From Desulfosarcina ovata subsp. ovata (GTDB lineage Bacteria; Desulfobacterota; Desulfobacteria; Desulfobacterales; Desulfosarcinaceae): DNA of 64,000 bases. Position numbers and translations under genes: made by a program. The stretch lies in the NCBI RefSeq assembly GCF_009689005.1, contig NZ_AP021879.1, forward strand, positions 4,642,652 through 4,706,651. Reading direction: 5' to 3'. The notes below the pieces were generated by a model, which was not told the DNA's origin, ran no database searches, and was given only the letters and a program-made list of their open reading frames with translations. Positions 56,038-64,000 of this stretch are shown here, in pieces (position 1 is the stretch's first letter; each line of letters opens with the position of its first letter).

Positions 56038-56919
56038 ATGTCAGAACTGCGTAAAAAGATGATCCGGGCAATGGAACTTAAGGATTTTTCACCGAGGACT
56101 CAGCAATCCTATTTGTCTGCAGTTGAAGGCCTATCAAAATTTCATCGGAAGTCACCGGATCGTCTAACGCAAACAGAAATCGAAGACTACGTGCTTCACC
56201 TTAAAGATGAAGGGAAGAGCGCAAGCACACGCAATGTTATCATTTCCGGGATGAAGTTTTTCTACCAGCATACACTGATAAACAGCGAAATCGCATTGAA
56301 TATGCCAAGTCGTCGTAAACCAAAAATCCTACCTGAAGTTCTCAGTAGAGAGCAGGTTCGCATGATCATCGATACTCCGGCGGATCTCAAGCATCGGCTG
56401 ATATTGATGACGGCTTATTCTGGAGGGCTTCGAGTCAGTGAAGTGGCAGCACTGAAAGTCAAAAGCATCGACAGTGCACGGATGGTGATCCGGGTCTATC
56501 AGGGCAAAGGCATGAAAGACCGCGATACGCTGCTTTCTAAAAAACTGCTGGAGGAACTACGGGGCTATTGGAAGGTCTATCGCCCGACAGATTGGCTGTT
56601 TTACGGTAAACGTCGCGACACTCCCATGAGCATCACATCGATTCAGAGAATGTACCGCCGTGCCAAGAGCGACGCCGGCATCACCAAGGGCAAGGGCATT
56701 CATTGCCTTCGCCATTGCTTTGCCACTCATCTGCTGGAAGCCGGCTATGATGTGCGCAAGATACAGCTTCTCATGGGGCATCGCTCGTTGTCCACCACCA
56801 TGGTCTATCTTCACGTTTCCAGAAACGGGTTGGCCAAGGTCCAGAGCCCGCTGGATTTCATCGAAGAGCCGGAACAACAGGCGCCGCCGTGGGAGGATGA
56901 CGATGAATCCAATCAATAA
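56038..56919 (+). CDS. tyrosine recombinase (XerC/IS91-associated type)
   Basis: 293 aa. An N-terminal SAM-like core-binding domain (SPRTQQSYLSAVEGL), then the catalytic domain: Arg in SGGLRVSEVA, HCLRHCFATHLLEAG (HxxR), GHRSLSTTMVYLHVS with the Tyr nucleophile. The extra helix patch between conserved patches that marks integron integrases is not seen. AAAGGAGGGAACTC precedes the ATG. It overlaps the start of the IS91 transposase by 17 bases, the arrangement of one IS91 subgroup. Confidence 0.85.
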   Translation: MSELRKKMIRAMELKDFSPRTQQSYLSAVEGLSKFHRKSPDRLTQTEIEDYVLHLKDEGKSASTRNVIISGMKFFYQHTLINSEIALNMPSRRKPKILPEVLSREQVRMIIDTPADLKHRLILMTAYSGGLRVSEVAALKVKSIDSARMVIRVYQGKGMKDRDTLLSKKLLEELRGYWKVYRPTDWLFYGKRRDTPMSITSIQRMYRRAKSDAGITKGKGIHCLRHCFATHLLEAGYDVRKIQLLMGHRSLSTTMVYLHVSRNGLAKVQSPLDFIEEPEQQAPPWEDDDESNQ

Positions 56920-58114
56920 TTATCCTCAACCAGCAAACCGACAGGTGGAAGTGGCGGATATTTTGCGCTGCCACATCGGTGACTATCTCAAAAGATACAA
57001 TATGCCGCCGGAGCATTACAGGGTCGTATACGACATTTTAAATTGCCGGACCGCTTATCTTGGCGGGCACGTTGAAATGTGCGATCAATGCGGAGCCGAA
57101 CGCATCCTTTACAACTCGTGCCGCAACCGGCATTGCCCGAAATGCCAGACCATCACCAAGCAACGCTGGTTGTCCGCCCGGCAGGCTGAACTTTTGCCGG
57201 TCAACTATTTTCACAATGTTTTCACCCTTCCTCATGAATTGAATCCTTTGATTTTGTGCAACAAACCACTCATGCTGGGATTCCTGTTTCATGCCGCCAG
57301 CCAGACGTTGCTCGATTTCGGCAAGAATCCGAAAAACGAACTCGGTGGTCAGTTGGGGATCATCGCTATTTTGCACACTTGGACGCAAACATTGATGGAT
57401 CATTTTCACCTGCACTGCCTGGTGCCTGGCGGTGCGATCGCCGGAAATGGGAAGGAATGGATCAATAGCAAAGGGGAGTTCCTCTTTCCGGTAAAAGCGC
57501 TTTCGAAAGTTTTCCGGGGAAAATTCATATCGTATCTGGAAGATGCATATAGCAAGAACCAGTTGTGCTTTCCCGGCAATACCCGTGCGTTAGGGACCCG
57601 CCAAGGGTTCCGGCGCTTGATCAAACAGCTGTGGTCGAAAAACTGGGTGGTCTATACCAAGCCGCCCATTGAGCGCCCGGAATGGGTGCTCGATTACCTT
57701 GGGCGCTATACGCATCGCATTGCCATATCGAATCATCGCATCACTGATTTTTCTGACGGCCGTGTGACGTTCACGATCAAAAACAGAAAACGCAAGACGA
57801 CTGAAACCGTCACCCTCGATGCGGTCGAATTCATCCGGCGGTTCTTGTTGCATGTACTGCCCAAGCGGTTCGTACGCATCCGGCATTATGGCTTTTTGGC
57901 CAACCGTGGCAAGAAAAAGAACATTGGCCTGTGCCGTTTGTTGATGAACTTGTCCCCCGATATCCCCGAGGTGCGGGATCAGTCCGTCCAGGCAATCATG
58001 ATGGCACAGGCCGGTATCGACATATTGAGGTGCCCAAGCTGCAAACAAGGAATGATGAGAAAGATATACGAAATCCCGGAAGGGTCCGGAGACGGCACTG
58101 GTTCAGTTCAATAG
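56903..58114 (+). CDS. IS91-family transposase (HUH)
   Basis: 403 aa. Zinc-binding Cys in MCDQCG...NSCRNRHCPKCQ at the N-terminus, the HUH motif HFHLHCLVPGG, and a conserved C-terminal part (LGRYTHRIAISNHRI; RIRHYGFLANRGKKKNI; CPSCKQGMM). Rolling-circle transposase. The last residues are changed: after EGSG the frame enters a 148-bp MITE and stops at 58112-58114, losing about 15 native residues compared with copy 1. Confidence 0.9.
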   Translation: MNPINNYPQPANRQVEVADILRCHIGDYLKRYNMPPEHYRVVYDILNCRTAYLGGHVEMCDQCGAERILYNSCRNRHCPKCQTITKQRWLSARQAELLPVNYFHNVFTLPHELNPLILCNKPLMLGFLFHAASQTLLDFGKNPKNELGGQLGIIAILHTWTQTLMDHFHLHCLVPGGAIAGNGKEWINSKGEFLFPVKALSKVFRGKFISYLEDAYSKNQLCFPGNTRALGTRQGFRRLIKQLWSKNWVVYTKPPIERPEWVLDYLGRYTHRIAISNHRITDFSDGRVTFTIKNRKRKTTETVTLDAVEFIRRFLLHVLPKRFVRIRHYGFLANRGKKKNIGLCRLLMNLSPDIPEVRDQSVQAIMMAQAGIDILRCPSCKQGMMRKIYEIPEGSGDGTGSVQ

Positions 58115-58241
58115 GTGATCCAATAATATCAATATGTTATAGCAGGCTTGAAAAACCAGTCATATTGAATATAACTATCTGTTATTAAAATGAAAAATTG
58201 TACCCCCTTAGCTAAATTACCTATTGAACTGAACCAGTGCC
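58094..58241. repeat. 148-bp MITE with perfect 23-bp terminal inverted repeats
   Basis: The left end (58094-58116, GGCACTGGTTCAGTTCAA..) and right end (58219-58241) are exact reverse complements over 23 bp. The AT-rich centre has no gene. Starting with GGCACTG, the ends resemble IS6-family tips. Compared with IS91 copy 1, about 120 bp (54282-54402) are replaced, so insertion came with a deletion. Confidence 0.88.
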
Positions 58242-58474
58242 AAGTGATGGGATCGGTTTGCCCTCAGGTCATGAAACGATCGAAATCGGCATTCCCATAA
58301 ATTGTGAGTGATGCCGAAAAGGCTTGGTTACCCGGTGTTTTCACCCATTCAACAATCACGATCACCCCCAGGATTCTGATTCTGCCCTTTCACCAGAACC
58401 AGCGAGGCAGTCCTCTGTTTACAATCCCCATATTAAATGGTAGTCATTTCGAGAATATGTTCCAAATTGCCTTA

Positions 58475-58605
58475 GTCCAACCAGTTTTATCCATCATCCC
58501 GCATCGCGCTAAAAGACCTTCAACATTGATTCAGCACCTTCATTTGTTGGGGGTACGTCGTTTCAATGGTTGGCGGGACGACGGATAAAACTCTATACGT
58601 TGGAC
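58475..58605 (+). other. integron attC site C
   Basis: Same sequence as site A except at the last bases: R'' GTCCAAC (58475-58481), complementary to TTGGAC at the 5' end of its own cassette (55888), and R' GTTGGAC (58599-58605) belonging to the next cassette. The A/C identity with different R' tails is what cassette recombination leaves. Confidence 0.72.
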
Positions 58606-58640
58606 GAATGCTGCCAAGCAGCAGGAAGTAGATTGAAAGG

Positions 58641-58853
58641 ATGGGCAAAGGAAAGCGACTTAAGAAGTTGAGAAGAACATCCGAAGCATCCTTTTCTGAT
58701 AAGTTTCAGGAGACGTTTACCAGGAACTTCCAGAAAGAGGTGAAAAACTCTGAATTGTGGGATGAAATTGTTGCCCAGTATGGTGAAAAACGTGCCCTGG
58801 AAATCATCAGGGAATGTAAGGCGGAAGTAAAGACAGACATGGAAATAAAATGA
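58641..58853 (+). CDS. small basic protein coupled to cassette HUH transposase
   Basis: 70 aa, Lys/Arg-rich N-terminus (MGKGKRLKKLRR) and helical rest (FSDKFQETFTRNFQKEV). It begins 41 bases after the cassette 5' end and its stop overlaps the next ATG (ATGA). Function unknown; perhaps an accessory to the transposase. Confidence 0.55.
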   Translation: MGKGKRLKKLRRTSEASFSDKFQETFTRNFQKEVKNSELWDEIVAQYGEKRALEIIRECKAEVKTDMEIK

Positions 58854-60040
58854 AAGCCGGGATTGTTCAGCAGATATTCAACGATCATTTCGAGGAATAC
58901 CGGAAAGGCCGCATTTTAGATGGCCGGCAGTGGCGGGCGGCCTGGGACATCATGACCTGCCAAACTCCTGAAAAGGGGTTTCATGTCGATGAATGCCCGA
59001 ACGGCGACTATCGGGTGATCCTGCCCAATTCGTGCAAGAACCGGTCTTGTCCCCAGTGCGGCTCGACCGAGACCCAATTGTGGCTTGAGCGCAGACGGTC
59101 CCAGGCGCTTGATTGCCCCTACTTTCATGGTGTGATTACCATCAGCCATGACCTCCACCCCATCTGGGCGGTAAATCGCCGGTTGTTCACCGGCCTTATG
59201 ATGCAAAGCGCATGGCATTCATTACGTGAGATGCTTGCTGACTTGCGATGGTTGGGCGGGCTTCCCGGCGTCATCGCCGTATTCCAAAGCTGGGACGATC
59301 ACCTTAACAAGCATTGTCACCTGCATCTGATCATCACCGCCGGGGGATTGAACGATGATGGTCGGTGGGTAAGCGCGAAGAAAGACATGTTGGTGTATAC
59401 GCCGGCGTTGGCATCCAAGTTCAGGGGCAAGTTTCTCGATTATCTTAAAGAAGGCTTCAACCCTTTGACCAAAACGGGTCGACGGAAGCCGTCGGATCAA
59501 GTGCTGACCCCTCCACCGGGCAAGAGCGTTCAGCAATGCTTGAACCTGCTCAACAAGCTGGGACGGGTTAGCTGGCACGCTGAAATCAAGCCGGCTTACG
59601 AACATGCCAACGGCGTTTTCAAATACGTCGGGCGGTACATCCGCCGGGGGCCGATCTCTGAAAAGCGGATTGTGGGTTATGATGGGGATACGGTAACCAT
59701 CGCCTATGCGCATCCGGAAAAGCATGATCAACTGACATTTAAGTTGGATGCACAGACGTTTATCCGTCGTCTGTTGGATCATGTTCCGGAGAAAGGAACG
59801 CATCTGGTCAGATCCTACGGTCTTTTCCATCCAACCCAGTTGGAAAAACTGAATCTGGCACGAGCGTGTCTGGGCCAAAAGGCGTATATCCCCGGAATTG
59901 AGCGACCGACGACCATTGAGTTGCTGCGCCAAATGTTCCCGGATCTTTCTGAAACCCGTTGTCCGCATTGCGGGGAGATCCTTCGAACCGTTTTTGTCTA
60001 CCGCGGCGGCCATACCGAGCCCTGGAGACTGGCCGCATGA
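58850..60040 (+). CDS. IS91/ISCR-type HUH transposase in cassette
   Basis: 396 aa. N-terminal zinc cysteines (NSCKNRSCPQCGSTETQLW), HUH motif HCHLHLIITAGGL, conserved FKYVGRYIRRGPI, and C-terminal CPHCGEIL. It is only distantly similar to the other IS91 copies here. Coupled by ATGA overlaps to both neighbours, so all three are one transcript within the cassette. Confidence 0.85.
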   Translation: MKAGIVQQIFNDHFEEYRKGRILDGRQWRAAWDIMTCQTPEKGFHVDECPNGDYRVILPNSCKNRSCPQCGSTETQLWLERRRSQALDCPYFHGVITISHDLHPIWAVNRRLFTGLMMQSAWHSLREMLADLRWLGGLPGVIAVFQSWDDHLNKHCHLHLIITAGGLNDDGRWVSAKKDMLVYTPALASKFRGKFLDYLKEGFNPLTKTGRRKPSDQVLTPPPGKSVQQCLNLLNKLGRVSWHAEIKPAYEHANGVFKYVGRYIRRGPISEKRIVGYDGDTVTIAYAHPEKHDQLTFKLDAQTFIRRLLDHVPEKGTHLVRSYGLFHPTQLEKLNLARACLGQKAYIPGIERPTTIELLRQMFPDLSETRCPHCGEILRTVFVYRGGHTEPWRLAA

Positions 60041-60407: not shown

Positions 60408-60916
60408 TAACAATTTATCGAGAACAGGGGAAGGTGGTAAAGATTTGAAGCATTAGACAATAAAATGTTAATCAGGAATCAATTTTGATAAGCTCGCTTA
60501 TTTTGTAAACATGGCATTCAGTTTGATACAAAGGATTATAATTGAGCAAACGGATTTTATTCTTCTCCTATCGTATAATTGATAAATAAAAAGGTATAGA
60601 CAATGCTAAGGCAAAAATAGTGTAACGGCCTACCCCGCCTATGCGGCAAAAGTGTAACGGTTGGTTCTACTATCCCGCAGCGAGACCCCGCCCCAAAAAT
60701 CAATAAACCTACCACGCTACCCCGCCGCAATAGCTCCCGCCGGCAATCGTTTTTACCAAAAAGTTTTTGTAGGTTGTAAAGTGGGTATTGTCATGGTCCA
60801 AGAAAATGAGGAGAAAGCCCGGAACCATCACTTCCGGGCTTTCAGGGTGAACTCCGTATCAAGGCCGGATGTTCATTAAGTAAATTACTTTAAACTCCGG
60901 CCACTTTCAAGGCCGG
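60408..60916. other. intergenic, possible left end of the integrase module
   Basis: No supported gene in 509 bp. Two copies of GTGTAACGG (60619 and 60652) may be element-end repeats. A perfect 12-bp hairpin GAAAGCCCGGAA/TTCCGGGCTTTC (60813-60843) and a smaller CCGGCC/GGCCGG hairpin at 60897-60916 follow, with AAGGCCGGATG repeated at 60861 and 60910. Confidence 0.45.
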
Positions 60917-61306
60917 ATGGTAAAGCTGATCCAAATATCCTGTCGTTGGTGCAACACCGTTTTTTGTGTGTGCCGGTGCTGCTTTCGTGGGCATGCTTAT
61001 TGTTGCGATGCATGCCGCATCGCCGGTCGTCTCCAGTCCCGTCGAAAAGCGCAGCGACGCTACCGTAAAACCGATAAAGGTAAAAAAGCCCACCGTCTTG
61101 CCGAAAACCGTCGTCGGCATCGTGAAATCGATCCACGTAGAAAAAACATGGATGATCATACTTCAACAAGCCCTTTTAAACGGGTTATGTTGCCACCACA
61201 GATCGAAATTTCGGTACCTTTTCGCCTCGGTTTTCGATGCCGCTGCCATTTTTGCGGTCGGCCGGGTGAAATTGTGAGCCATTTTCCACGCCGTGGTTAT
61301 GGATGA
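60917..61306 (+). CDS. Cys-rich zinc-finger protein of integrase module
   Basis: 129 aa. Cysteine pairs CRWC, CVCRCC, YCCDAC near the N-terminus, a strongly basic middle (RRKAQRRYRKTDKGKKAHRL), and a C-terminal CRCHFCG. Nucleic-acid binding is likely. First gene of the tight run that ends with the DDE integrase; its stop is 43 bases before the CHC2 gene. Confidence 0.6.
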   Translation: MVKLIQISCRWCNTVFCVCRCCFRGHAYCCDACRIAGRLQSRRKAQRRYRKTDKGKKAHRLAENRRRHREIDPRRKNMDDHTSTSPFKRVMLPPQIEISVPFRLGFRCRCHFCGRPGEIVSHFPRRGYG

Positions 61307-61349
61307 AATCTTTTTCAGGATTTTTTACGCAGATAAGGAGGCCAATATC

Positions 61350-61715
61350 ATGAGACGACGGTTTACAGGGGGAGAACTGTTTCAACTGCGCAATCGGATC
61401 CCGGTTGACTGGCTGATCAAAGAACAGCTTCATATCCCATCTAAAGTGATCGAAGGCATTTTTCGTTTTCTATGCCCGCTATGCAATGAATTTCAAACCG
61501 CGACCAACCCCAAGACCAATCTCGCCAGGTGCTTTCTTTGCGAGAAAAACTTCAACCCGATTGATTTGGTCATGACCGTGAAAGGCCTTGGATTCGTTGA
61601 CAGTGTCAAATATTTGCAAACCCTTGTACCAAACAGACCGGATCCTTTAACGGACCAACGGTTGGAATTGAATCAACTGCTTGGCGATATCGGGAAACGG
61701 ATGAGCATCGGGTGA
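61350..61715 (+). CDS. CHC2 (DnaG-type) zinc-finger protein
   Basis: 121 aa. The sequence matches the N-terminal zinc domain of DnaG primase: FRFLCPLCNEFQTATN, ARCFLCEKNFNPIDLVMTVKGL, FVDSVKYLQ. Four Cys replace the usual CHC2 ligand set. There is no TOPRIM catalytic domain, so it is a stand-alone binding module, not a primase. AAGGAGG precedes the ATG at 61350. 4 bases before the next gene. Confidence 0.8.
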   Translation: MRRRFTGGELFQLRNRIPVDWLIKEQLHIPSKVIEGIFRFLCPLCNEFQTATNPKTNLARCFLCEKNFNPIDLVMTVKGLGFVDSVKYLQTLVPNRPDPLTDQRLELNQLLGDIGKRMSIG

Positions 61716-61719
61716 ACAG

Positions 61720-62295
61720 ATGGCCAACAACCGACTCACCCAATTGGAGGAGATCATCGCTGCCAATCAACACCATTTTCACCAAACCGGTAAGGCATTA
61801 AAGCAGATTCGAGACGATCAATTGTTTCGAGATTTGCTGTTCGATTCGTTTGAAGGCTATGTCAAGGACCGGTGGGATATGGCCCGATCCCAGGCATATC
61901 GTCTGATTAAGGCCGCCAATGTCATCGACAATTTGTCTCCAATTGGCGACGGCATCCTTCCGGAGAATGAATACCAGGCCAGGATTCTAACGCGTTTTAC
62001 AAAAGAGGATCAACGCAAGATCTGGCGTGCATTTATCGCATCCGGCATGGCGCTCACGGCTAAGAATATTAGAAAGTACGCCCATCAAACCCTAAAGGCC
62101 AAGCATGTCAAAAAAAAGAATGCGTCTGTGGTCGATATCATCAGCGCAGACTATAAAACGGCCGTGATGGCCATGCTGGAACAGATTCGGTCGGCGCAAA
62201 ACGATGATTGGCAAACGACATCCAGACAAGCGGCCTTATTCTGGCTGAAAGTGATGAAAGAGAAAATCATTCGTCATGAAAGACAAAGACTTTGA
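61720..62295 (+). CDS. DNA-binding-like accessory protein of integrase module
   Basis: 191 aa. LFDSFEGYVKDRWDMARSQAYRLIKAANVI resembles the helix-turn-helix region of plasmid and phage DNA-binding proteins (ParB/KorB-like). Long helices follow; the C-terminus is basic. It overlaps the start of the integrase gene by 20 bases. A role in target or end binding is inferred. Confidence 0.6.
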   Translation: MANNRLTQLEEIIAANQHHFHQTGKALKQIRDDQLFRDLLFDSFEGYVKDRWDMARSQAYRLIKAANVIDNLSPIGDGILPENEYQARILTRFTKEDQRKIWRAFIASGMALTAKNIRKYAHQTLKAKHVKKKNASVVDIISADYKTAVMAMLEQIRSAQNDDWQTTSRQAALFWLKVMKEKIIRHERQRL

Positions 62296-63955
62296 ACAAC
62301 TGCCCATGGACGACCGTTTCCTGATCTTGCTGCACAAAAAGATCATGGACAAAACCGGCAGCGCCAAACGCAGGGCCAAAAAATATTACATGGATCAATA
62401 CCGTAAGACCGGCGTCATTCCCAAACCGCTGCTGCTTGCCGGCCAAGGCATCATGGAAGGCAGAAAGTGCAGCGGCCGGCGCCGGGTCTTGACCGAAAAA
62501 ATCCAAAACCGCTTCATCGAGATGGTCAAGGCTTCCAGCGATCCATCGGACGATCGTTTTGTATTTATCACCCGCCATGGACGAACCATCAAAAATTACC
62601 ACGCCTGGCTCGAACAAGAGTTCGAACGTAGCATCTCACTTAGCGCTTTAAGGCGTTTTGCCAGGCAAGCCAACCTCAAGGTCTATTTGGAAAAACCAGA
62701 CTTCGAGGAAAAGAACGATCCCAGCGTCTGCTTTAAGGACGAACCGGTCTTCGATTTGATTCAAATGGACGGATGCAGGTTTCGCTATTTCAAGATTCGA
62801 TCGGACGACGGCGTTTGGGCCAAGCCCCAGGTGATCGAGTTTTTTGACACCGGATCGCGCAACATGCTTGTGCTTGACGCCTATTTTTCCGAAAGCAGTC
62901 TAAATTCGGTGGACCTGTTCGAGAAATTTTTGGTGAGCACCCCCTTTCCGCAAAAAAAGATACGGCTGAGACCGGACAATGCAAAGGGTTTTGTCAACCT
63001 GAAACGCCCCATCAACGAACTGAACATCAAATTTTCATTGCCAGGCGGATTTTATCTGCAACCAAACTTCTCACGCATCCATGCGCCCAAGGACAAAGCA
63101 CATCTGGAATCATCCCATCGCAGCATCCATCATTTTGAAATGCGGATCATCAAGCACTTTGAAGACCGCATCGTTAAGACAGAACCGGGCTATATCTACA
63201 AAAAGGGCAAAAAAGGAAAAATTACCATCACCTATCTCGACATCGATCTTGCAACGCTGCGCCAGAGTGGTTTACTCGAAGCCTATCGCCGGCAGCACAA
63301 TGAGCAAAAGCACTATTATTCTGTGAACGGTAAAACATCGGCCTGGGTGCCCAAGGAGAAGTTTGACGACGGTCTTGCCCAATACGAGTGGATAACGTTC
63401 AGTGCGGATGACGTACGCCATTTCGTCAAATACGGCTATGACAAGATCAACGCCACCGTGGGGGCGAAAGGCATCATTACTTTCAAAAAGCAGACCTACT
63501 ATGTGGCCGTTGGCGCGCAACACTTCAGCCGCCACAAGAGCACCAAGGTGTATATCTCCGATCTTGGCGACAAGCTGTTTATCTTCGAGCATAAGGAAAA
63601 CGGTATCCTGCTGGGTGAAGCGCTGCGCCGGGAACCTTACGAAAAGCCGGTCAAAAAGGCAGGCACCGAACCCAACGCGGTTGAATTGATCAGCGCTTTT
63701 CTGCAGGAGAAAAAGATGGCGGTGGACAGGCCACGACTGATTGACATCCATCTTCGGGGTTTGACCCTCGATGCCGCCCAAACAATCTATCGGCAACACC
63801 GGAAACGATATATCGCTTACGCGATCAAACTACGCCAGCCTGAAACCATCACCGGCAAGGCGCTTTTCAATGCGTTCATTTTGGATTGCGAAAGACAATT
63901 GTCAAACAACCCTTTGGCCCCGTATGCCTCATGCAGCGAAAACAAAGTTTTATAA
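62276..63955 (+). CDS. DDE integrase/transposase, rve type
   Basis: 559 aa. N-terminal basic helix-turn-helix part (~1-140), RNase-H-like core with Asp165 (LIQMDGCRF), Asp234 (RPDNAKG) and Glu278 (HLESSHRS), and a C-terminal beta-barrel (FKKQTYYVAVGAQHFSRHKSTKVYISD) like that of Mu/TnsB transposases. Length and plan resemble MuA/TnsB/IstA. No AAA+ ATPase partner is seen in the window; one could lie beyond 64000. Fourth gene of the 60.9-63.96 kb module. Confidence 0.85.
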   Translation: MKDKDFEQLPMDDRFLILLHKKIMDKTGSAKRRAKKYYMDQYRKTGVIPKPLLLAGQGIMEGRKCSGRRRVLTEKIQNRFIEMVKASSDPSDDRFVFITRHGRTIKNYHAWLEQEFERSISLSALRRFARQANLKVYLEKPDFEEKNDPSVCFKDEPVFDLIQMDGCRFRYFKIRSDDGVWAKPQVIEFFDTGSRNMLVLDAYFSESSLNSVDLFEKFLVSTPFPQKKIRLRPDNAKGFVNLKRPINELNIKFSLPGGFYLQPNFSRIHAPKDKAHLESSHRSIHHFEMRIIKHFEDRIVKTEPGYIYKKGKKGKITITYLDIDLATLRQSGLLEAYRRQHNEQKHYYSVNGKTSAWVPKEKFDDGLAQYEWITFSADDVRHFVKYGYDKINATVGAKGIITFKKQTYYVAVGAQHFSRHKSTKVYISDLGDKLFIFEHKENGILLGEALRREPYEKPVKKAGTEPNAVELISAFLQEKKMAVDRPRLIDIHLRGLTLDAAQTIYRQHRKRYIAYAIKLRQPETITGKALFNAFILDCERQLSNNPLAPYASCSENKVL

Positions 63956-64000
63956 ACGATAAGCGCCGGGTCTCCTATCTATCCGCGGTATACAACCGGA

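Follow-up and report, generated by a model that had tools for sequence, protein, structure and literature searches.

A multi-copy DDE transposon of Desulfosarcina ovata with a stand-alone CHC2 zinc-domain gene and a directional repeat array inside its left end

IS21 elements carry repeats inside their ends and show the IstA/IstB organisation, according to an excerpt of PMC11208146. The DnaG primases of C. difficile and Aquifex have a preference for 5'-CCC, in C. difficile ideally preceded by C or T, and in both enzymes this preference is associated with a lysine close to the zinc ribbon (excerpt of PMC5204125). We describe here a transposon that encodes a DDE transposase of MuA/TnsB/IstA-like fold together with a stand-alone zinc domain of the DnaG type (CHC2). 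It lies at the edge of a 64,000-nucleotide stretch of Desulfosarcina ovata subsp. ovata, the window, which spans positions 4,642,652-4,706,651 of a single 7.63-Mb contig. The original prediction, made from these letters without database searches, had proposed an unusual mobile module of four tightly packed genes, and all four reading frames are present as described, with a 43-bp gap between the genes for a zinc-finger (ZnF) protein and CHC2, a 4-bp gap between CHC2 and a helix-turn-helix (HTH) gene, and a 20-bp overlap between the latter and the DDE gene. Six-frame reading of the complete 4,308 bp gave five genes, the fifth encoding an AAA ATPase. The right end and the possible ATPase had been placed outside the window, and both were located there: the transposon runs 911 bp beyond the window end, and the ATPase gene lies mostly past it, with its ATG at 63931 just inside. 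We regard the make-up of the element and its cassette as nearly certain. Our best overall explanation, which we place just on the probable side, is an autonomous transposon of the MuA/TnsB/IstA class with an AAA ATPase, carrying an exchangeable cassette in which CHC2 would read a repeat array at the element end.

Comparison of the copies with their flanks gave sharp ends, the element starting with TGCTAAGG and ending with CCTTAGCA. The 24-bp terminal inverted repeat (TIR) of the left end recurs as an identical inverted copy at window-equivalent 64888-64911, outside the window, and a pattern search of the D. ovata genome allowing up to 3 mismatches returned 21 matches, all exact (reversed control, 0). 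The GTGTAACGG repeats that had been suggested to mark an end do so, since the first of them overlaps the TIR that starts at 60604, in its inner portion, and the second is subterminal. The DDE gene occurs in 11 copies in this genome, 10 full length at 100% protein identity and 1 split in two; at the DNA level 6 copies are uninterrupted, 4 lie in two separated pieces and 1 lacks the first 155 bp. Aligning the copies, as had been advised, defined not only the TIRs but also 6-bp target-site duplications (TSDs) at 4 of the 11 (ttcgtc, agctta, ttcgcc and cacgga). A fifth duplication, gttgga, is shared by two copies of opposite orientation, to the left of one and to the right of the other, as an inversion would leave it; the other copies lack a TSD, so that rearrangement between copies is likely. 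In five other multi-copy genomes a 6-bp TSD was recognised by eye at 14 of 16 copies (locus L093 has 5 bp and L106 none; the broken copy L104 was left out of the set). Over 19 TSDs, C stands at position 3 in 12 and G at position 4 in 15, a preference limited to the central positions. Taken together, the 11 near-identical copies, TIRs and 6-bp TSDs show, as far as sequence can, that the element is mobile or was so recently. That 11 copies lie in one genome, and that the gene order recurs in others, is well beyond chance.

The CHC2 protein was correctly recognised at the outset as a stand-alone DnaG-type domain without a primase domain. PF01807 is its sole Pfam match (E 4.5e-5, 1.3 bits below the curated cut-off), and Pfam found no Toprim polymerase domain of DnaG in its 121 aa; the most likely start is the ATG at 61350, which matches the gap after ZnF. 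The AlphaFold 2 model (predicted local distance difference test score, pLDDT, 83.8) has the zinc domain of B. stearothermophilus DnaG as its top PDB match (1d0q, E 1.7e-4), followed by Aquifex primase (E 0.024), and the likely zinc ligands are four cysteines, not CHCC. A profile search in which the best 15 candidates per genome were scored gave CHC2 matches in at least 46 of 291 sampled genomes of the class, and in 4 of 395 genomes of a phylum-wide sample, two of these being the class members G000 and G005. By a manual tally that covered one or more loci per genome rather than every match, the gene stands beside a transposition module in at least 40 of the 46; the six others (G036, G082, G083, G090, G142 and G187) show contig edges, fragments or unclear surroundings. 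As for the earlier view that CHC2 was no known partner of such integrases, it proved a regular partner of the present DDE family (25 of 34 loci), but the pairing is not special to integrases of this kind.

Four types of module accompany CHC2: the window type, a second DDE plus ATPase type, IS21-like elements, and tyrosine-recombinase trios. In the second, for which we assume the label ExeA type, the DDE protein has a Mu-C domain (rve below cut-off) and the ATPase is AAA_22. D. ovata itself carries this combination with a zinc protein first and CHC2 at two places, L122 (near 793 kb) and L123 (2.79 Mb), whose DDE protein matches IS481 below cut-off. The IS21-like type comprises a ParB-like protein (TIGR00180 below cut-off), an IstA-like protein and an ATPase matching IstB_IS21 at 3e-50, with ZnF in several; the element of D. 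autotrophicum HRM2 is annotated with ParB, HTH, ATP-binding protein and CHC2. For the trios, the one tyrosine recombinase checked matches Phage_integrase at 1e-29. CHC2 lies within the repeated unit in three of the types, namely the window type, the trios (about 4.03 kb) and the IS21-like elements (4.74 and 4.53 kb). Rampant swapping of CHC2 was considered and rejected: the CHC2 tree, which has few columns, needs 4 changes among the four element types where the least possible is 3, and thus CHC2 mostly stays with its element type. One well-supported transfer brought an ExeA-type CHC2 into the window-type loci L113, L114 and L147. The count on this tree leaves out L217_4771 and three CHC2 rows that had no assignment, and takes L118 as window type after relabelling by hand.

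Some window-type elements have a winged-helix protein of ~140 aa in place of CHC2 between the ZnF and HTH genes, and the array goes with CHC2 rather than with this protein. In the D. ovata element, four inward-pointing sites start 28-115 bp inside the left end. Leaders of CHC2 cassettes have their TACCCCGCC-like repeats on a single strand only; at least one repeat with at most one mismatch occurs in 32 of 36 non-redundant CHC2 leaders versus 1 of 22 winged-helix leaders (Fisher 7e-11, a value that ignores the relatedness of the loci). Leaders shorter than 120 bp, near-identical leaders, and L248, L256 and L262, which have neither gene in the slot, were dropped from this count, and L188 and L253 each enter twice through two frames. 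A blind 8-mer count on leaders trimmed to 260 bp found TACCCCGC at least twice in 32 of 35 CHC2 leaders, against a shuffle mean of 0.8. The same approach yielded a candidate for the winged-helix leaders that we rejected: the best 8-mer occurs at least twice in 13 of 21 leaders with a shuffle mean of 4.2, and other words reach 12 when shuffled. Within the ZnF lineage of the window, the array is present with CHC2 (L015, L094, L188) and absent with the winged helix (L097, L116, L130, L141; one loose site in L141).

The consensus, TAYCCCGCC, is identical in all four element types. A slightly relaxed pattern, applied to chosen loci, gave at least two sites in the window type at 20/20 main loci, 4/5 loci of a subclade with a drifted motif and 3/3 loci with the ExeA-type CHC2, and elsewhere in 6/6 trios, 5/7 ExeA-type and 9/12 IS21-like loci. 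Where ends are known, site starts lie 27-132 bp inward of the left end in the window type and 66-134 bp in trios, and a few stray sites fall within genes. An IS21-like element of genome G170 has inward-pointing sites at both ends, and its relative in G128 has one site near each end. Strict repeat pairs were present in 5 of 14 searched genomes, these being five of the six CHC2 genomes (D. ovata is the sixth), and in none of the 8 genomes without a CHC2 match among the best 15 candidates per genome. In the five, a manual count put 45 of 51 array places at CHC2 elements, one with an insertion between array and genes. The six other places are three of a gene-less element, a remnant of a left end (L303), a place next to a ZnF fragment (L299), and L302. 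Together these results suggest that CHC2 and the repeat signature form a shared, exchangeable part of different mobile elements.

Two of these finds deserve a word of their own. The gene-less element of ~218 bp in G210 (L297, L298, L300) has window-type ends and has kept the array; one copy has the TSD acaaag, one is split and one has a different left tip, and it is possible that this is a miniature inverted-repeat transposable element mobilised in trans. At L302:4549-4593, three TAYCCCGC repeats have no recognised element gene in the 9 kb covered and are unexplained.

The winged-helix protein matches HTH_36 just above cut-off and, weakly, the PHROG 'replication initiation protein' (E 0.0019). 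It has matches in 66 of the 291 class genomes; 15 of 30 listed loci lie beside trio genes, 11 beside IS21-like genes, 2 in window-type elements and 2 beside no recognised module, and a same-strand ZnF was recognised in 20 of the 30 by manual tally. On the DDE tree, from which the fragment L155 is absent, the occupant of the slot (CHC2 or winged helix) changed at least 4 times, also when only the starred branches are used. The exchange is well seen between L135 (CHC2) and L137 (winged helix): their identity is 90.2% in the part that runs from the HTH gene to where the shorter contig stops, and 89.7% over 58 bp at the left end, with no similarity in the ~1.1 kb between; the L135 array starts at bp 65, just within the swapped segment.

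How might such a cassette work? By fold and family, the DDE protein would cut and join the ends, and the AAA ATPase would pick the target and activate it. Ahead of these genes stands the exchangeable cassette of ZnF and either CHC2 or the winged-helix protein. CHC2 would recognise the directional repeats, TAYCCCGCC, that lie directly inside the end of the element, perhaps on an exposed strand in the way that DnaG recognises its priming sites, and would recruit DnaG, or partners of it, from the host's replication proteins; the winged helix, weakly similar to phage replication initiators, would be a different means to the same task. Since the partner would be the host and not the recombinase, we propose that one cassette can serve both DDE and tyrosine-recombinase elements. 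Of 68 CHC2 proteins, 67 have R directly before the third cysteine, and the 68th is a likely pattern artefact; this R is aligned with the H of 1d0q and the K of 2au3, and may correspond to the primase lysine. It is this basic residue, together with the YCCC core of the array, which C. difficile DnaG also prefers, that leads us to suggest that the array is read by CHC2, which would connect the element end to host replication. That CHC2 acts on the array is a prediction we consider fairly probable. Its action on replication or priming is more doubtful and best treated as a hypothesis. More tentative still is the fullest version, a portable 'end-priming' cassette, consisting of a primase-type zinc domain or an initiator-type winged helix plus a strand-specific end array, that would be swapped between transposons of unrelated chemistry and couple the element end to host replication.

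Several observations weigh against this reading. Because the loci are related, the Fisher value overstates their independence; the DDE tree offers 4 independent CHC2/array contrasts, of which a mean of 3.9 agree and none opposes, and with only 4 a p of 0.05 is out of reach. L117 and L190 carry CHC2 without the array, L205 has none at the expected place, and two sites are wanting at 2 of the 7 ExeA-type and 3 of the 12 IS21-like loci. Conversely, the winged-helix locus L257 has one motif copy, and L141 has one by the looser pattern. The D. ovata copies, owing to their spacing and mismatches, have no strict repeat pair, and the backward control of that search gave 6 matches in 4 of the 14 genomes (0-2 per genome), so single chance pairs occur. 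No comparable array was found for the winged-helix cassettes, and the PHROG match of the winged helix and the borfam match of the HTH protein are weak. Replication-fork targeting by orientation was tried and rejected: 24 of 52 insertions in five genomes (G000, G210, G230, G170, G005) are co-oriented with the fork (p 0.68), its direction being inferred from dnaA with the terminus assumed opposite. In the same set, dnaA has 20 of the 52 insertions within a distance of 10% of the genome length, where 10.4 would be expected (p 0.0025, as one of two tests). Two genomes of a single genus contribute 15 of these 20 and G000 a further 4, there was no control element, and we do not use the figure as evidence.

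The main competing account is autoregulation, in which CHC2, with ZnF, would bind the leader array and repress or attenuate the operon at the DNA or RNA level, making the cassette a self-contained regulator with its own operator. Such a regulator would be equally portable between chemistries, the array does precede the first gene in elements of the window type, in trios and in most of the ExeA type, and in the L135/L137 pair it falls within the swapped segment. What makes us think it unlikely is the IS21-like type, where the sites lie past the CHC2 3' end on the opposite strand (24 bottom versus 3 top sites in the 600 bp after CHC2 over 12 loci, about 1 per strand being expected), some also at the left end (L200, L229); moreover, the ~218-bp derivative retained the array and has no gene, and Rfam found no known RNA in the element. 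Another possibility is that CHC2 and the array are merely co-carried by recombination, the array being a site of the transposase or ZnF. The relatedness of the loci and the few independent contrasts speak for it, but we judge it distinctly improbable: array and CHC2 stay together though their relative place and strand vary (at the left in the window type, the ExeA type and the trios, and in IS21-like elements at the right and inverted as well), the ZnF lineage of the window has the array with CHC2 and lacks it with the winged helix, and the recombinases served are unrelated, so that a shared transposase site is unlikely.

Two further alternatives keep closer to known transposons. AAA-dependent transposons often carry a zinc-bearing target selector, and since no TniQ was found among the element's proteins, CHC2 could replace TniQ/TnsD as the adaptor between target DNA and ATPase. 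However, CHC2 also occurs in tyrosine-recombinase trios, where such an ATPase was not seen, the array lies inside the element and not in its targets, and the TSD preference extends to no more than C and G at two central positions (12 and 15 of 19). It is the use of CHC2 by the trios that led us to reject TniQ-like targeting as the principal explanation, and we hold it to be very improbable. An ordinary IS21 or Tn7-like element with passenger genes would account for the transposase fold, the AAA partner and the inner repeats in the ends; with no IstB_IS21, TniQ or rve match, and with small genes that are conserved and under selection, we give it hardly any credence. The explanation we favour is the transposon with an exchangeable cassette whose CHC2 would act at the element end.

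The five proteins and the other features of the element are listed in Table 1. Median dN/dS values (pairs with dS 0.1-1.5; 13 to 26 pairs per gene) are 0.18 for ZnF, 0.13 for CHC2, 0.16 for HTH, 0.12 for DDE and 0.05 for the ATPase, so that the small genes are maintained by selection. The HTH protein matches NCBIfam borfam_49 at E 2.4e-6, below cut-off.

Table 1. Features of the transposon, in window coordinates
Feature	Position	Strand	Basis or remark
Transposon, 4308 bp total	60604..64000 in window; right end at window-equivalent 64911	+	11 genomic copies
Left TIR TGCTAAGGCAAAAATAGTGTAACG, 24 bp	60604..60627	+	Copy comparison and pattern search
Inward-pointing array: TACCCCGCC 60631, TATCCCGCA 60671, GACCCCGCC 60684, TACCCCGCC 60718	60631..60726	+	
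Second GTGTAACGG, subterminal repeat of inner part of TIR	60652..60660	+	Similar second repeat in relatives
ZnF protein, 129 aa	60917..61306	+	Same lineage in L094, L097, L116, L130, L141
Stand-alone CHC2 (DnaG-type zinc domain), 121 aa, without primase catalytic domain	61350..61715	+	
HTH protein, 191 aa, weakly Borrelia replication/partitioning-like	61720..62295	+	Conserved in relatives
DDE transposase, 559 aa; D165, D234, E278	62276..63955	+	
AAA ATPase, gene start, 222 aa	63931..64000; window-equivalent end 64599	+	25-bp overlap with DDE gene

The assignment of the DDE protein to the MuA/TnsB/IstA group, already proposed from its residues, is borne out by fold. D165, D234 and E278 are invariant in an alignment of 18 members. 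The AlphaFold 2 model is mediocre (pLDDT 66.9), and its best matches are nevertheless consistent: Foldseek gave TnsB of a V-K CAST (CRISPR-associated transposon; E 1.7e-9), MuA (7.9e-8) and then Tn7 TnsB, and VIA Z was 9.4 for Tn7 TnsB (matched by residues 147-458), 8.6 for the MuA core and 7.4 for IstA, a value that alone says little given that retroviral integrases reach 7.0-7.5. With an RNase H fold, D-D-E residues and a C-terminal beta barrel, the protein has the features of its class. Pfam gave nothing for it at E <= 1, and no NCBIfam model reached its cut-off (a weak IS630 match lies far below), which supports a DDE family without match to curated Pfam or NCBIfam families; the suggestion of an undescribed transposon family is supported as far as these two collections reach. 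The ATPase matches AAA_22 above cut-off, with Walker A GEYGVGKT and Walker B IIIDEAND, and TniB at E 2.4e-4, 1.3 bits below cut-off; IstB_IS21 (PF01695) gave no match to it at E <= 1. Against PHROG, the ATPase matches 'DNA transposition protein' (PHROG 296, E 1.2e-11) and the DDE protein 'transposase' (PHROG 310, E 1.8e-4). Among the element's five proteins, Pfam found no TniQ/TnsD at E <= 1 and no rve, and no TnsA-like nuclease or resolvase was recognised, which makes a replicative or circle route likely. The six-frame reading of the 4,308 bp contained no phage lytic or structural genes. PDB profile searches with the DDE, ATPase (L091 left out) and HTH alignments gave no real match; a plasmid search gave none with DDE, while two CHC2 queries matched one plasmid record, that of HRM2.

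DDE relatives occur in 28 of the 291 sampled class genomes, D. ovata included; the other genomes of the same genus or family in that sample had no DDE match, and one of the same genus holds a broken ZnF and CHC2 remnant (L188). A search for the same gene order elsewhere, as had been recommended, was successful: a scan of one genome per named species gave 34 DDE loci, several identical with loci of the class sample. By title 27 are from Desulfobacterota or Deltaproteobacteria, 3 from proteobacteria and 4 from other phyla, the last all metagenome-assembled genomes and possibly mis-binned; the isolate Desulfocicer vacuolatum DSM 3385 is among the 34. The slot upstream of DDE holds CHC2 in 25 and the winged helix in 4, and is cut by a contig end in 3; in L154 the DDE gene is broken off inside the contig, and the distant relative L156 has neither occupant. 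The HTH gene is found in 30 of 34 (missing at two contig ends, in L154, which lacks the DDE start, and in L156), and the ATPase in 29 (missing at four contig ends and in L153, where DDE itself is broken off). Co-occurrence of the small genes with the integrase, as originally envisaged, therefore holds for CHC2 and HTH, but the first ZnF is not one constant lineage. Desulforapulum autotrophicum HRM2 has 12 copies of the ATPase. L156/L083 (36% identity), with DDE, two small reading frames and an ATPase and no recognised CHC2 or HTH gene, is possibly an outgroup of the family.

As to the neighbourhood, window positions 56038-60040, upstream of the element, hold a reading frame resembling a tyrosine recombinase (by reading) and IS91-type genes, one of which matches Zn_Tnp_IS91 and Y2_Tnp. 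At L015:11562-15819, also in D. ovata, frames matching trio-type tyrosine recombinases start directly at the element's right end.

In a literature search whose coverage did not extend to preprints and most subscription journals, no paper joined CHC2 and TnsB, none of those listed described such a cassette, and combining CHC2 with transposase or transposon and recombinase returned PMC4747519 alone, which by its listing has a different subject. The D. autotrophicum genome paper reports >100 transposon-related genes in its abstract, with CHC2 unmentioned in the excerpt (PMC2702500). The element adds to the AAA-dependent transposons a family with many near-identical copies, which also occurs in Desulforapulum autotrophicum HRM2, a sulfate reducer that can be cultured. 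Almost no machinery is common to DDE transposons and tyrosine-recombinase elements, yet both have here a small DNA-binding-type protein and an apparent DNA signature in common; families defined by recombinase alone miss such shared modules. If true, the pairing would offer a handle on the way in which mobile elements recruit the replication of their host, as well as a new targeting or priming part that can be transferred, and the 'end-priming' reading a new class of mobile-element part that is independent of the recombinase served.

Set beside known systems, the element shares with Tn7 and Tn5053 the TnsB-like DDE fold and a weak, sub-cut-off TniB match of its ATPase, and differs in having no TniQ, TnsA or resolvase match among its five proteins. 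Phage Mu has the MuA fold in common with it, as well as the PHROG transposition-protein matches of ATPase and DDE, but the element has no recognised phage structural genes and its TSD is 6 bp, whereas that of Mu is 5 bp. With IS21 it shares a DDE protein of MuA/TnsB/IstA fold, one small AAA ATPase and repeats within the ends; the likeness to IstA is one of fold, Pfam giving no match and NCBIfam no model above cut-off. In contrast, the ATPase does not match IstB_IS21, and there are three extra genes in about 4.3-4.6 kb. RIT elements use tyrosine recombinases instead of DDE, and yet some trios have the same ZnF and CHC2 cassette plus array, or ZnF and winged helix; an excerpt on RIT elements, of ~3.5 kb, leaves such cassette genes unmentioned (PMC3414803). 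Finally, although CHC2 differs from DnaG in having four cysteines as likely ligands and neither a polymerase nor a helicase-binding domain, it shares the fold of the DnaG zinc domain, and the YCCC of the array equals the preference described for C. difficile DnaG (excerpt of PMC5204125).

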